Shown one piece after another: positions 88 to 41,151 of a stretch of DNA of 41,151 bases. Below the pieces are notes generated by a model. It saw nothing but the letters and a program-made list of their open reading frames with translations, ran no database searches and had not been told where the DNA came from. The stretch is from NCBI GenBank assembly GCA_944324175.1, contig CALUVH010000016.1:1-41151 (forward strand), in the 5' to 3' direction. Position numbers and translations under genes: made by a program. The DNA is from Candidatus Gastranaerophilales bacterium. GTDB lineage: Bacteria > Cyanobacteriota > Vampirovibrionia > Gastranaerophilales > Gastranaerophilaceae. The number at the start of each line of letters is the position of its first letter. Positions within the stretch are counted from its first letter, which is position 1.

Positions 88-93
88 TATAAT
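88..93 (+). promoter_or_regulatory. -10 box 6 nt before the RAYT start codon
   Basis: A perfect TATAAT ends 6 nt before the ATG at 100. No purine-rich ribosome binding site lies between, and no convincing -35 box is seen at the expected place. The spacing matches that before the genes at 36608 and 41115, so transcription may start at or next to the ATG, giving a leaderless mRNA. Confidence 0.4.
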
Positions 94-99
94 GAGATT

Positions 100-603
100 A
101 TGAATTATAAAAGATTATTTGTAAAAAACGGATGCATTTTTATAACAATGGTCACAAATAATAGGATCCCTATTTTAATTAATAACATTGAAAATATAGC
201 TCAATCTTATCTAGATGTTTCACGGATATACTCATTTGAATTGATAGCATACTCAGTTCAAAATGATCATTTGCATTGTATTATAAGACCTAAAGAAATA
301 AGAGAATATCCCAAAATTGTGAAATCATTCAAATATTCGGTTACTAAAAAAGTCGGATTAGTAAATCCGACCTACAGTAGAATATGGCAAAATCGTTACT
401 GGGAACATACTTTAAGGGATGAGGAAGACCTAAATAGACACATTGATTATGTTCACTACAACCCCGTAAAGCATAATCTTGTCAAAAATGTTAAAGATTG
501 GAAGTATTCTTCATTTCACAAGTTTGTAGAACAAAACCTGTATGATATAAACTGGGGGACGAATGAAGATATTCAAAAGATTATAGACTTAGATTTTGAA
601 TAA
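100..603 (+). CDS. REP-associated tyrosine transposase (RAYT, Y1/IS200-like family)
   Basis: Single-strand DNA nuclease/transposase of the HUH-Y1 class, which recognises REP hairpins. The HUH motif is at residues 57-59 (DHLHC), and the C-terminal helix motif DYVHYNPVKHNLV (116-128) carries the likely catalytic Tyr117. The IWQNRYWEHTLRDEEDLNRHIDY block is typical of RAYTs. The length of 167 aa is normal and the frame is intact. Residues 85-92 (VGLVNPTY) are encoded by a complete 24-nt REP unit lying exactly in frame between the helix carrying KSFKYSVTKK and the conserved IWQ block. The gene is alone, with no IS200 orfB partner and no insertion-sequence ends other than the REP copies. RAYTs are usually single-copy domesticated genes rather than active transposons. 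The family call is firm; activity is unknown. Confidence 0.9.
   Translation: MNYKRLFVKNGCIFITMVTNNRIPILINNIENIAQSYLDVSRIYSFELIAYSVQNDHLHCIIRPKEIREYPKIVKSFKYSVTKKVGLVNPTYSRIWQNRYWEHTLRDEEDLNRHIDYVHYNPVKHNLVKNVKDWKYSSFHKFVEQNLYDINWGTNEDIQKIIDLDFE
352..375. repeat. Inverted REP copy inside the RAYT coding sequence
   Basis: The reverse complement of 352-375 matches 3-26 at 23 of 24 positions. The arms at 352-359 and 364-371 are perfect. Position 352 is the first base of codon 85 of the RAYT and the unit is 24 nt long, so it contributes exactly eight residues (VGLVNPTY) without changing frame. Confidence 0.8.
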
Positions 604-25531: not shown

Positions 25532-27901
25532 TTATTTAATGTCAATTACGCTAACTCCATCTCCACCTTCGGTGTTATTGCCGGGACGGTAGTCTTTTAC
25601 GTAAGGAGATGTTGATAAAAATTCCCTCAAGGCTGATTTTAAAGCTCCAGTACCGTGACCATGGATTAATGTTAGTGGAGAAACGTTTGCAAGGCTTGCT
25701 TCATCGAGCCAACTTTCAAGTTCGTCCAAAGCATCCTCAACTCTATATCCACGAAGGTCTAGAGTATTTGATACGTTGTATTTTTTCAGGGTAAAACTTT
25801 CCATAGAATTTGAGATAAGCGAACTTTGTTTTTTTTCATATTTTTTTTCATATGCTGCAAGTTTTTCTTTTTTGATTTTAGTTTTAATGTTTCCCATTAA
25901 AACAGGAACATTGTTACTTTTGTCAGGTAGTCCGAGTAATGTAACGATTTGATTTAATTCTTTGAGTATTACTTTGTCATTTATAGATATATTATTCCAA
26001 TTAATCTCTTGATATTCGGTTTGTTCATTGTATTCTTCCAGTTTGTTTCGAAACTTTTGTTCAAGATTTCCAAGTCTAGCATAAGCACGACGAGCTACTT
26101 TTTCGGATTTTTCTTTGCGTAATTCATCAAGTATTTCTTTAATTTCTGCTTTTACAGAAAGTAATTCGTAGTCGAATTTATCCTTAATTTTTTTAATTGT
26201 TTTTTTCTTGTCTTTTTTTATTTCCGATAAATTATTTTCATATTCTTTTTTAATAGAAAGTGACTTTTCTTTAATATTTTGTGCGTCTTGGAGATTTTGA
26301 GATAATTCCTGTTGTGTTTGTTGAAGCTTTTCGACCACTAAAAAGGAAGAATCTTTTTGAGAGATAAGTTGATTTTTAGCGTTTTCAATAATAGATTTAT
26401 CAAGTCCGAGGTTTGAAGAAATAAGTATTGCGTTACTTAAGCCCGGAATACCCATTAAAAGTTTATATGTAGGTTTTAGTGTGGTTGTGTCAAATTCAAC
26501 TGATGCATTTTTAAAATATGGGTTGGAGTATTCCAGCGCTTTAAGCTCCCCATAGTGAGTTGTAACAGTTGAATAGACACCTTTATTCGCTAAGTATTCT
26601 AAAATTGTACTTGCCAGCACAGCCCCTTCTTGTGGGTCTGTTCCTGCACAAATTTCATCTAGTAGTACAAAACTGTCATTGTCACTTTTATTTGAAATTT
26701 CGATGATATTTGTCATATGTGAAGAAAATGTGGACAAATTTTGCAAGATACTTTGATCATCTCCAATATCTGCAAATATATTTTTGAATGGGTGAATTTT
26801 AGCCATTGTACAAGGTAGGAACATGCCAGACTTTGTCATCAAAAGGAACAGACCTATTGTTTTAAGTGTTACGGTTTTTCCTCCTGTATTAGATCCTGTT
26901 ATAATTACTGATTTATATTCTTTTCCTATTTCAAAGTCGTTTGCTATAACATTTTCAACATTCCCTATTAAAAGCGGATGGCGCATTTTTTCCAGTGATA
27001 TAATTTTCTGTTCTTCTGTTATTTCAGGTTCTATCGCTTGAATTTTTACGGCATATCGTGCTTTTGCAAAGTGATAATCTATTTGCGCTAAAAGTTTTTC
27101 GCTGAGAGCAATTTCTGTAATTTTATTTCTGATTAGGTTTGTTAATACTACTAAAATTCTTACAAGTTCGGCGTGAATTTGTGATTTTAGCTCTCTTATT
27201 TTGTTGTTTAAAGGTACTATAGACTCTGGTTCTATGTAAAAAGTTTTATTGGAAGCTGATACATCATGCACAATACCGGAGACTTTATTTTTAGAAGGTG
27301 CCATTACTTGGAATACAATTCTGTCATCTCGAGTTGTGTAAATATTTTCTTGTAGATGTTTTTGAAAGTCTGTATCAGCAAGAAGGGTATTAACTTGTTT
27401 TTTTAAGTTTTTTTCGGTGTCTTTTAACGACGCATAAAGCCCCTTAAGCTCAGGGGTTGCATCTTGTCTGATATTTAGTGTGTCGTCAAATGTATCAAAA
27501 ATTTGTTCTTCAAGTTCTTTATCTGAAATTAGTTCTTTCGAAAGTGAAAGCAGTTGAGAATTTTGCTCCAAATTACTATTTAGAAATTTTTTTACAAGTC
27601 TTGATGAGCGAAGAGTTTGAGCTATGTCGATTAATTCTTCCTCGTTAAGGTAGTTTGTTGCAAGGATGTTTTGAATTTTTTTAAGATCAGCGACAAATCC
27701 GATTGGCAACTCTGCTGGCATGTCAAGAATAAATTTTGCTTCTTTCGTGTACTGCAGTTCTCTTTTAATTTCAGGAATGCTATTTTGAGGCTTGCAATCA
27801 AGGCAAAGCTTCTTGCTTTGTGGAATTTTAGCAAGTTCCGATATTTTTTCTTTAATTTTATCGAATTCAAGAGTTTTGAAGGTTTTAGTCGTAATGTCCA
27901 T
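25532..27901 (-). CDS. mutS2: Endonuclease MutS2
   Basis: MutS-family ATPase with a C-terminal Smr nuclease domain. Known members suppress recombination or act on collided ribosomes. From the chosen ATG (27901) it is 789 aa: N-terminal core, clamp/lever helices, Walker A GSNTGGKT (336-343), Walker B FVLLDEICAGTD (411-422), a long Lys/Glu coiled coil (about 540-640), and Smr with LDLRGYR and HGHGTGALK at the end. The frame is open 43 codons further upstream, but that part has no MutS2 similarity and overlaps the preceding gene. The chosen start lies 7 nt after a TTGCAA-N17-TAAAAT promoter and has no ribosome binding site. Confidence 0.95.
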   Translation of the reverse strand: MDITTKTFKTLEFDKIKEKISELAKIPQSKKLCLDCKPQNSIPEIKRELQYTKEAKFILDMPAELPIGFVADLKKIQNILATNYLNEEELIDIAQTLRSSRLVKKFLNSNLEQNSQLLSLSKELISDKELEEQIFDTFDDTLNIRQDATPELKGLYASLKDTEKNLKKQVNTLLADTDFQKHLQENIYTTRDDRIVFQVMAPSKNKVSGIVHDVSASNKTFYIEPESIVPLNNKIRELKSQIHAELVRILVVLTNLIRNKITEIALSEKLLAQIDYHFAKARYAVKIQAIEPEITEEQKIISLEKMRHPLLIGNVENVIANDFEIGKEYKSVIITGSNTGGKTVTLKTIGLFLLMTKSGMFLPCTMAKIHPFKNIFADIGDDQSILQNLSTFSSHMTNIIEISNKSDNDSFVLLDEICAGTDPQEGAVLASTILEYLANKGVYSTVTTHYGELKALEYSNPYFKNASVEFDTTTLKPTYKLLMGIPGLSNAILISSNLGLDKSIIENAKNQLISQKDSSFLVVEKLQQTQQELSQNLQDAQNIKEKSLSIKKEYENNLSEIKKDKKKTIKKIKDKFDYELLSVKAEIKEILDELRKEKSEKVARRAYARLGNLEQKFRNKLEEYNEQTEYQEINWNNISINDKVILKELNQIVTLLGLPDKSNNVPVLMGNIKTKIKKEKLAAYEKKYEKKQSSLISNSMESFTLKKYNVSNTLDLRGYRVEDALDELESWLDEASLANVSPLTLIHGHGTGALKSALREFLSTSPYVKDYRPGNNTEGGDGVSVIDIK

Positions 27902-27908
27902 AGTTGTT

Positions 27909-27937
27909 ATTTTATGCACAAATAAGTGAGTTTGCAA
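27909..27937 (-). promoter_or_regulatory. mutS2 promoter, leaderless layout
   Basis: On the minus strand, TTGCAA (27937-27932), 17 nt, TAAAAT (27914-27909), then 7 nt to the ATG. No ribosome binding site is present. It lies in the 40-nt gap after the previous gene. Confidence 0.6.
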
Positions 27938-32900: not shown

Positions 32901-32929
32901 TTGCATAAGTTTTAAAAAGCTGTTAATAT
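32901..32929 (+). promoter_or_regulatory. TPR gene promoter, leaderless layout
   Basis: TTGCAT (32901-32906), exactly 17 nt, TAATAT (32924-32929), then 6 nt to the ATG at 32936. No ribosome binding site lies between. Confidence 0.6.
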
Positions 32930-32935
32930 TTAACT

Positions 32936-33850
32936 ATGTCAAAACTTGATAAAATAGAAGAATTACAAAATGTCCTAAAGGAGGATAATACGAATTTTCA
33001 AGCGCGCAGACAGCTCGCTGTGCTTTTGCTCGATACGGGTTTCCCTAAAGAGGCGTTGCAGCACTTCTTATATTTAACAAAATTTTTTAATGACGATAGC
33101 GGGATTTACTATAATCTTGGTATTGTATATGAAAAGTTAAAGGAGTTTGATAAGGCTGTTGACGCGTATAAAAAAGCGATAGAGTTATCTCCTGATGAGG
33201 TTGATTCTTATTACAATCTGGGGCTTGTGTACATTGCAAAAAAGATGTATGAGGAGGCTGTAGACTGCTTTGAAACTGTCTTAGAGCATGATAGTGATGA
33301 TTCTAATTCTTACTTTAGTATTGGACTTTGCTATTTCAAAGAGGGTAAGCTTGACGGTGCAAAGTATTATTTTGAACGTACTGTTGAATTAAATGATGAG
33401 GATATTTACGCTCATTTTTACATTGGAAATATTTTGAAAGATCAGGGGGATTTGGATGGCGCTTTGAATAAGTTTTACAAAGTGCTTGAGCTTTCGCCGG
33501 ATTATAGCTGGGCATATTTTAATATAGCTGCGATTATGTATGAAAAGCAGGATTATGAATGTGCAATAGATAATTTAAAAAGAACGATAGAGCTTAACAG
33601 CAAGGATTACGATGCTTACATCATTTATGCAAAGATTTTAACAAAGATGAATAAGCTTGAGGAGGCGTCAGAAATTCTTGAAATGGCAGAAGAACAGGGC
33701 GCTAATACAGGTGATTTTTATTATATTTGTGCTAGACTTGCAAAGTTGCGTCACGAAACAGAAGAGAGCAACGAGTATTTAAAACTCGCACTAAAAAATT
33801 TCACTACCCTGTCAATCAGCCCGAAAAAAGTTCAGGCTGAAATGATGTAG
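32936..33850 (+). CDS. Tetratricopeptide-repeat protein
   Basis: 304 aa, almost all TPR helices (about seven repeats, e.g. GIYYNLGIVYEKLKEFDKAVDAYKKAIELSPD and DSYYNLGLVYIAKKMYEEAVDCFETVLEHD). No signal peptide or membrane segment. Cytoplasmic protein-protein scaffold by family; the partner is unknown. It is a single-gene unit, divergent from the secreted-protein/proS unit and convergent with the pilin-like gene, from which it is 10 bp away. The start has no ribosome binding site and sits 6 nt after a good -10. Confidence 0.88.
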   Translation: MSKLDKIEELQNVLKEDNTNFQARRQLAVLLLDTGFPKEALQHFLYLTKFFNDDSGIYYNLGIVYEKLKEFDKAVDAYKKAIELSPDEVDSYYNLGLVYIAKKMYEEAVDCFETVLEHDSDDSNSYFSIGLCYFKEGKLDGAKYYFERTVELNDEDIYAHFYIGNILKDQGDLDGALNKFYKVLELSPDYSWAYFNIAAIMYEKQDYECAIDNLKRTIELNSKDYDAYIIYAKILTKMNKLEEASEILEMAEEQGANTGDFYYICARLAKLRHETEESNEYLKLALKNFTTLSISPKKVQAEMM

Positions 33851-36528: not shown

Positions 36529-36572
36529 TTGAATCACCTTTTTTTATATTTTAACTCTTTGTAAATATTATA

Positions 36573-36601
36573 CTGCAAAAATAAAATTTTTAGGTTATAA
36601 T
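36573..36601 (+). promoter_or_regulatory. nanE promoter, leaderless layout
   Basis: CTGCAA (36573-36578), exactly 17 nt, TATAAT (36596-36601), then 6 nt to the ATG at 36608 with no ribosome binding site. A minus-strand TATAAT (36572-36567) that could serve the M16 gene abuts it. Confidence 0.6.
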
Positions 36602-36607
36602 TCACCT

Positions 36608-37297
36608 ATGGAAAATATAGTTAATCGATTAAAAAATAAGGTAGTAGTGTCAGTTCAGGCGATGCCTAGTGAGCCTTTGTATTTAGAAAAGTGTATGGCA
36701 GCGATGATGAAATCGGTTGTCAAAGGTGGAGCTGGTGGGCTAAGAGTTGCTGGAGTAAGGGATGTAAAAAATGCCAAAACGCTTTTCGATATCCCAGTAA
36801 TCGGGATTACTAAGCCTGATATAATCCCCGCGAACTGGCAAGAAATTGTCTACATAACATCGACTGTTAATGATGTGTTAAGTTTAATTAGCGCAGGGGC
36901 TGATGTAATTGCATTTGACGGTACATCAAGACCTCGACCGGATGGCAGTAAGCTTTCAGAGATTATTAAATACATTAAAATAAACAAACGAGTTTCAATG
37001 GCGGATATTTCGACAGTAGAAGAGGGTATCAGCTGTGCAAAACTTGGTGCAAATTTGCTTTCTACTACACTTTCTGGATATACACAATTTTCTCAAAACC
37101 GTGGAGATGGGCCGGATTTTGAATTGCTTGAAAATCTTGTAAAAGAAACAAATGTTCCAGTTGTGCTTGAGGGAAGAATTTGGGAGCCAGAAGAGGTTGA
37201 TCGAGCTTTTGAACTTGGGGCGCACTGCGTTGTAATCGGTTCAGCTATTACTCGTCCTCAGTTGATTACAAAAAGATTTGTACAAAGAAAAAAGTAG
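36608..37297 (+). CDS. nanE: N-acetylmannosamine-6-phosphate 2-epimerase
   Basis: TIM-barrel enzyme that converts ManNAc-6-P to GlcNAc-6-P in sialic-acid/ManNAc use. The family blocks are present: SVQAMPSEPLY, GAGGLRVAGVRDV, PVIGITKPD, GADVIAFDGTSRPRPDG, SMADISTVEEG, LLSTTLSGYT, VVLEGRIWEPEEV and HCVVIGSAITRPQ. The length of 229 aa is normal. It is followed 7 nt later by a ROK kinase that could supply its substrate. NanA lyase and a transporter are not in the window, so external sialic acid or an internal amino-sugar route are both possible. Confidence 0.93.
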   Translation: MENIVNRLKNKVVVSVQAMPSEPLYLEKCMAAMMKSVVKGGAGGLRVAGVRDVKNAKTLFDIPVIGITKPDIIPANWQEIVYITSTVNDVLSLISAGADVIAFDGTSRPRPDGSKLSEIIKYIKINKRVSMADISTVEEGISCAKLGANLLSTTLSGYTQFSQNRGDGPDFELLENLVKETNVPVVLEGRIWEPEEVDRAFELGAHCVVIGSAITRPQLITKRFVQRKK

Positions 37298-41079: not shown

Positions 41080-41108
41080 TTGCGGAGCAGCGAAAAATAC
41101 GATATAAT
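41080..41108 (+). promoter_or_regulatory. Promoter of the last gene, leaderless layout
   Basis: TTGCGG (41080-41085), exactly 17 nt, TATAAT (41103-41108), then 6 nt to an ATG at 41115. No ribosome binding site. The 40940-41079 stretch shows nothing else. Confidence 0.55.
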
Positions 41109-41114
41109 CGAAAT

Positions 41115-41151
41115 ATGAGTATTACGTTTAGAAATACAATCAGGTTGGAAG
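41115..41151 (+). CDS. Start of a further gene, cut by the window end
   Basis: An open frame begins at the ATG at 41115 and reads MSITFRNTIRLE to the window edge (12 codons). It is too short to identify. It is supported only by the promoter placed 6 nt upstream in the same layout as other genes here. Confidence 0.4.
   Translation, partial: MSITFRNTIRLE

Follow-up and report, generated by a model that had tools for sequence, protein, structure and literature searches.

Introduction

Archaea, Actinobacteria and Deinococcus-Thermus provide most of the documented cases of leaderless initiation; Cyanobacteria, to our knowledge, have been described as making no great use of either Shine-Dalgarno (SD)-led or leaderless genes. 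In Actinobacteria and Deinococcus-Thermus, more than 20% of genes are TA-led leaderless genes (PMC3160421). Almost one third of the ORFs in Deinococcus-Thermus are −10-motif genes, which were tested experimentally and give rise to leaderless mRNA (PMC12340547), and leaderless transcription was predicted by GeneMarkS-2 for 21.6% of bacterial species, a figure quoted in PMC9581028.

The genes described here belong to a Candidatus Gastranaerophilales bacterium of the Vampirovibrionia. Their kind, TA-led leaderless genes, is already known; the lineage is new, and a non-exhaustive literature search found no report tying Gastranaerophilales or Vampirovibrionia to leaderless genes, phase-variable pili or homopolymeric tracts. 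As in the TA-led genes of PMC3160421, a TANNNT Pribnow-like box has its first T some 12 bp before the start and an SD is absent, but the excess in Gastranaerophilales is about 6% of genes rather than more than 20%. The class also resembles the −10-motif genes of Deinococcus-Thermus (PMC12340547) in that an ORF-adjacent −10 would act as the promoter, the −35 often being dispensable in that phylum; it differs in being a minority predicted from sequence and in its extended −10 TG. The genome is mixed, with SD-led genes alongside putatively leaderless ones that have a near-start promoter box, which matches the GeneMarkS-2 leaderless class as outlined in PMC9581028. The same paper gives Cyanobacteria as an example of a different GeneMarkS-2 class with a weak upstream signal, and the Vampirovibrionia genome looks unlike that.

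Promoter-like sites in the window

The window, the whole 41,151-nt stretch of DNA that was analysed, comes from contig C16 of a 1.68-Mb Candidatus Gastranaerophilales MAG in 38 contigs. Every one of the nearest named relatives of its nanE (92-93% identity) comes from a Candidatus Gastranaerophilales MAG. The sites and genes concerned are as follows.

88..102, plus strand: RAYT start; TATAAT (88-93), 6 nt, ATG at 100; TG extension, clear −35 absent; NF047646, E=2.5e-37.
25532..27901, minus strand: mutS2, putatively leaderless; TIGR01069, E=1.2e-230.
27899..27937, minus strand: predicted mutS2 promoter and start; TTGCAA, N17, TAAAAT (27914-27909), 7 nt, ATG at 27901.
32901..32938, plus strand: predicted promoter and start of a TPR gene; TTGCAT (32901-32906), N17, TAATAT (32924-32929), 6 nt, ATG at 32936.
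32936..33850, plus strand: TPR-repeat protein gene, putatively leaderless; Pfam TPR_1, E=1.6e-40; upstream SD absent.
36567..36601, no strand: imperfect inverted repeat at nanE; 16-nt arms, 75% complementary; it includes the nanE −10 together with a TATAAT placed back to back with it on the opposite strand.
36573..36610, plus strand: predicted nanE promoter and start; CTGCAA, N17, TATAAT (36596-36601), 6 nt, ATG at 36608.
36608..37297, plus strand: nanE, N-acetylmannosamine-6-phosphate 2-epimerase, putatively leaderless; NF002231, E=6.7e-76.
41080..41117, plus strand: one copy of a dispersed repeat promoter, truncated where the contig ends; TTGCGG-N17-TATAAT-N6-ATG.

The first-pass annotation had described four of these sites (TPR, nanE, mutS2 and 41080) as independent occurrences of the layout TTGCA(A/T)-N17-TATAAT-N6/7-ATG. 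The 17-nt spacer and the 6- or 7-nt distance to the ATG hold at all four; the hexamers are not exact everywhere, with CTGCAA at nanE, TAAAAT at mutS2, TTGCGG at 41080 and TAATAT at the TPR gene. Nor are the four sites independent, as 41080 is one of at least 28 copies in a repeat family. Direct reading bore out the arrangement given for the RAYT gene (TATAAT-N6-ATG) and for trkA, where 9 nt separate the −10 from the start. The TPR −10 agrees with TATAAT at only four of six positions; the orthologous TPR start of a congener (L074) reads TTGCAC-N17-TATTAT-N6-ATG. An Rfam search of the window gave zero matches.

A −10 box at a fixed distance from start codons

We scanned the window together with forty 20-kb stretches, 821 kb of readable sequence that make up half of the genome (34% GC); one 20-kb stretch of the same genome (L011, C9:1-20000) consists of N throughout. 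A simple coding-score caller, which used no promoter or SD information, called 722 genes. The null for the box peak was taken from ten flanking offsets, not from a full model.

Counted from the start codon, the first T of TATAAT shows a peak at −12 and −13. At these offsets, exact TATAAT occurs at 27 genes against 1.6 expected, a TANNNT box with at least five of six matches at 60 of the 722 genes against 14 expected, and a bare TANNNT at 95 against 44, with a P value against the flanking offsets of about 1e-19 or lower. The expectation that a TATAAT peak would end at −7 was thus borne out in the half of the genome scanned. With the test offset shifted at least two bases toward the ATG, or one to nine bases in the other direction, the count fell from 60 genes to between 7 and 21. 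A scan independent of the start calls, in which every intergenic TATAAT was taken with the offset of any ATG after it and the repeat family was removed, gave 39 ATGs at a spacer of 6 or 7 nt against 17.2 expected (P=5e-6). Chance would be a natural reading of the recurrence within the window, where TATAAT-like words are common at 34% GC and the TPR box is degenerate. As a general explanation it is refuted by the strength of this peak and by the cross-species conservation described below, and we hold it to be extremely unlikely even for the recurrence within the window; single sites may be due to chance.

Properties of the box genes

The 60 genes were chosen without regard to SD, start codon, operon position, T at −1 or TG, and they differ from the remaining genes in each of these. 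An SD is present in 2 of the 60 and in 367 of the 662 others (3% vs 55%), and all 60 start with ATG, compared with 599 of 662. Box genes are operon-internal in 15% of cases vs 34%, and 49 of the 60 are first in their transcription unit vs 397 of 662, so that first genes are enriched, not exclusive. A T precedes the start codon in 48 of the 60 (80%) vs 43% (P=9e-9). Bacterial transcription usually starts at a purine preceded by T, so this favours the A of the ATG as the initiating base. The extended −10 TG is found at 24 of the 60 boxes, compared with 50 of 358 boxes at leadered distances (40% vs 14%) and 8 of 72 boxes at wrong offsets near starts.

The same position could be read as a signal for translation rather than transcription: the genes would have short or longer leaders lacking an SD, and TATAAT at −12 would be an AT-rich, unstructured or S1-binding element. 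In Cyanobacteria and Bacteroidetes many leadered genes indeed lack an SD, starts preceded by AT-rich signals have been described (PMC3160421, PMC5397173), and about 40% of the genes here (295 of 722) have neither an SD nor a box. A signal of that type does not account well for a precise hexamer at a single offset, accompanied by a TG extension and T at −1. No comparable excess was found for five further hexamers that are AT-rich and similar in composition, and the nanE box shifts together with its ATG (see below). We therefore regard this alternative as very unlikely.

We consider it highly probable that a subset of genes, about 6%, is transcribed from promoters of the housekeeping sigma factor in which 6 or 7 nt separate the end of the −10 from the ATG, giving leaderless mRNA. 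Under the standard numbering of −12 to −7, transcription would start on the A of the ATG. From the position of the box we infer this RNA 5′ end and, by analogy with leaderless mRNAs elsewhere, a route of ribosome binding in which the start codon itself would be recognized. Most other genes have Shine-Dalgarno leaders. The leaderless promoters would typically be of the extended −10 type (TGnTATAAT), with a TTG −35 at 17 nt in a minority.

Annotated genes with the box include mutS2, uvrB, uvrC, dnaG, mnmG, lpxA, rlmD, thiE and those for a YifB-like ATPase, a FliI-like ATPase, an LptG-like permease and a PurD-like ligase. By inspection, DNA repair and replication genes (mutS2, uvrB, uvrC, dnaG) look frequent in this set.

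Size of the class

The first-pass annotation had proposed that a sizeable fraction of genes may be translated from leaderless mRNAs. This was right in kind, and the size is modest. About 14 of the 60 box genes are expected by chance, leaving an excess of 46 of 722, or about 6% of genes (about one in fifteen). Among genes that lack an SD and are apparently first in their transcription unit, 48 of 226 (about 21%) carry the box. The leaderless fraction is rough and probably low, because the gene caller is simple. Some box genes have a same-strand upstream neighbour at most 40 nt away, and an upstream promoter could reach these too.

The −35 element

A peak of TTGCA near −35 had also been predicted, and it is weakly supported. 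At −35, TTG occurs 42 times, compared with about 17 at neighbouring offsets, and it is likewise enriched at a spacer of 17 from intergenic TAnAAT (62 vs about 23); for TTGCA, no genome-wide peak at −35 was found in the half of the genome scanned. Only 12 of the 60 putatively leaderless genes have a TTG 17 nt upstream of the box. TTGC was considered as the −35 consensus of the lineage and rejected: C at position 4 was initially counted in 34 of 74 intergenic TTG-N17-TAnAAT pairs, a number inflated by the copies of the repeat family, and in 22 of 62 once these were removed. This still exceeds the 28 of 202 used for comparison (P=3e-4), and the commonest single −35 hexamer in such pairs is TTGACA. 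TTGCA is a local form, for instance at mutS2 and the TPR gene, and the more typical companion of the leaderless −10 is the extended −10 TG.

Conservation across relatives

Among 98 distinct nanE loci, 88 have a TATAAT-like box (TANNNT, at least four of six matches) at −12 or −13 from an in-frame ATG. The position of this ATG differs from that in the window's protein by 0 to 4 codons, and the box moves along with it. The exceptions are nine loci without a box and one with the box at −11; nine of the ten belong to other families within the order. For mutS2, a qualifying box at −12 or −13 is present in 16 of 30 orthologues, and most of the rest have, by eye, TTAAAT at the same offset. Many mutS2 orthologues keep TTGCAA or TTGTAA upstream.

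These alignments also bear on the idea that the start codons are misplaced, the true starts lying downstream and the transcripts being ordinarily leadered. Starts were picked by a simple coding score, and in some nanE orthologues another ATG follows two codons later. Most nanE orthologues, however, have no downstream ATG before the conserved region of the protein, and the mutS2 N-termini align from residue 1. Moreover, wrong starts would not be expected to yield ATG at all 60 genes or the exact 6- or 7-nt relation to the box. Misplaced starts are thus a very unlikely explanation, and we retain leaderless transcription from the near-start box as the preferred reading.

The same peak was seen in two further Gastranaerophilaceae genomes (G011, 25 vs 5.4; G038, 19 vs 4.4), and a weaker one in a genome from another family of the order (G023, 9 vs 2.6) and in one from another family of the class (G122, 13 vs 4.2). 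At phylum level, where class membership was deduced, partly from similarity, no significant box peak was found in three Cyanobacteriia-like genomes (G105, G130 and G081), nor was a peak found in the small samples from two GC-rich genomes (G046 and G050). A leaderless class in Vampirovibrionia, with none detected in the sampled Cyanobacteriia, would place its gain or loss on a known branch. In practical terms, gene callers applied to these bacteria, which are uncultured and widespread in the gut, should use the −10 box to place starts; mutS2, uvrB, uvrC, dnaG and mnmG are among the genes affected.

The inverted repeat at 36567-36601 separates nanE from a divergent M16 peptidase gene and has a TATAAT in each arm. 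Many nanE loci of the family also have this TTATA...TATAA arrangement. The repeat is a candidate divergent promoter pair or operator.

A dispersed repeat with poly-G tracts and prepilin genes

The pattern around 41080 has 28 matches in the genome (L262-L289), compared with 0 for a reversed control pattern. The true copy number may exceed 28 because many contigs end inside copies; several copies, including the one at 41080-41151 of the window, are cut in this way. The copies have about 120 nt of common upstream sequence, starting TTGTAACGAAA, followed by the promoter and the ATG, which opens an ORF of about 36 codons running into a tract of 11-12 G (22 G in one copy). In complete copies, an SD-led prepilin ORF of 355-379 aa lies 215-266 nt after this ATG. 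The prepilin N-terminus matches PF07963 N_methyl (E=1.3e-5) and is similar to the geopilin chain (E=0.0014), and the C-terminus differs strongly between copies.

In one subtype exactly one phase of the tract fuses the leader ORF in frame with the prepilin; in the other subtype none does. One copy (L285, 1518-2873) has 11 G, and its leader ORF is fused in frame to the prepilin, giving 451 aa. In the two 11-G copies L285 and L276 the leader ORF continues through the tract, whereas most 12-G sister copies stop at 36 codons. Comparisons between leader ORFs revealed no synonymous excess (8 vs 111; 20 vs 396) and no purifying selection, and translation of the leader ORF is for this reason unproven. 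Two copies (L265 and L270) have an identical C-terminal region and different 5′ parts, which suggests recombination between copies.

Apart from one short, weak match, the repeat DNA was not found in the 38 relatives that were searched for it. A spacer-pattern search for its 5′ part gave no match; the pattern was probably badly set. A diversity-generating retroelement (DGR) was considered as the source of the prepilin diversity and rejected, as the bacterium's own assembly (97% complete) contains no RVT_1 match. A reverse transcriptase match was found in three of five congeners.

We tentatively propose, as a possible though rather doubtful reading, that these loci, at least 28 in number, form a family specific to the species and have near-identical leaderless promoters. 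Poly-G slippage might shift the end of the leaderless reading frame and, in one subtype, fuse it in frame to the prepilin; if so, the set of type IV pilin variants expressed by each cell would keep changing.

Poly-G (G11) tracts are common in many Gastranaerophilaceae genomes (L317, L318, L325, L327, L330 and others) and seldom occur elsewhere in the order. Several of the tracts closely precede prepilin ORFs or fall inside them, some sit in glycosyltransferase- or acyltransferase-like ORFs, and they suggest a family-wide habit of phase variation.
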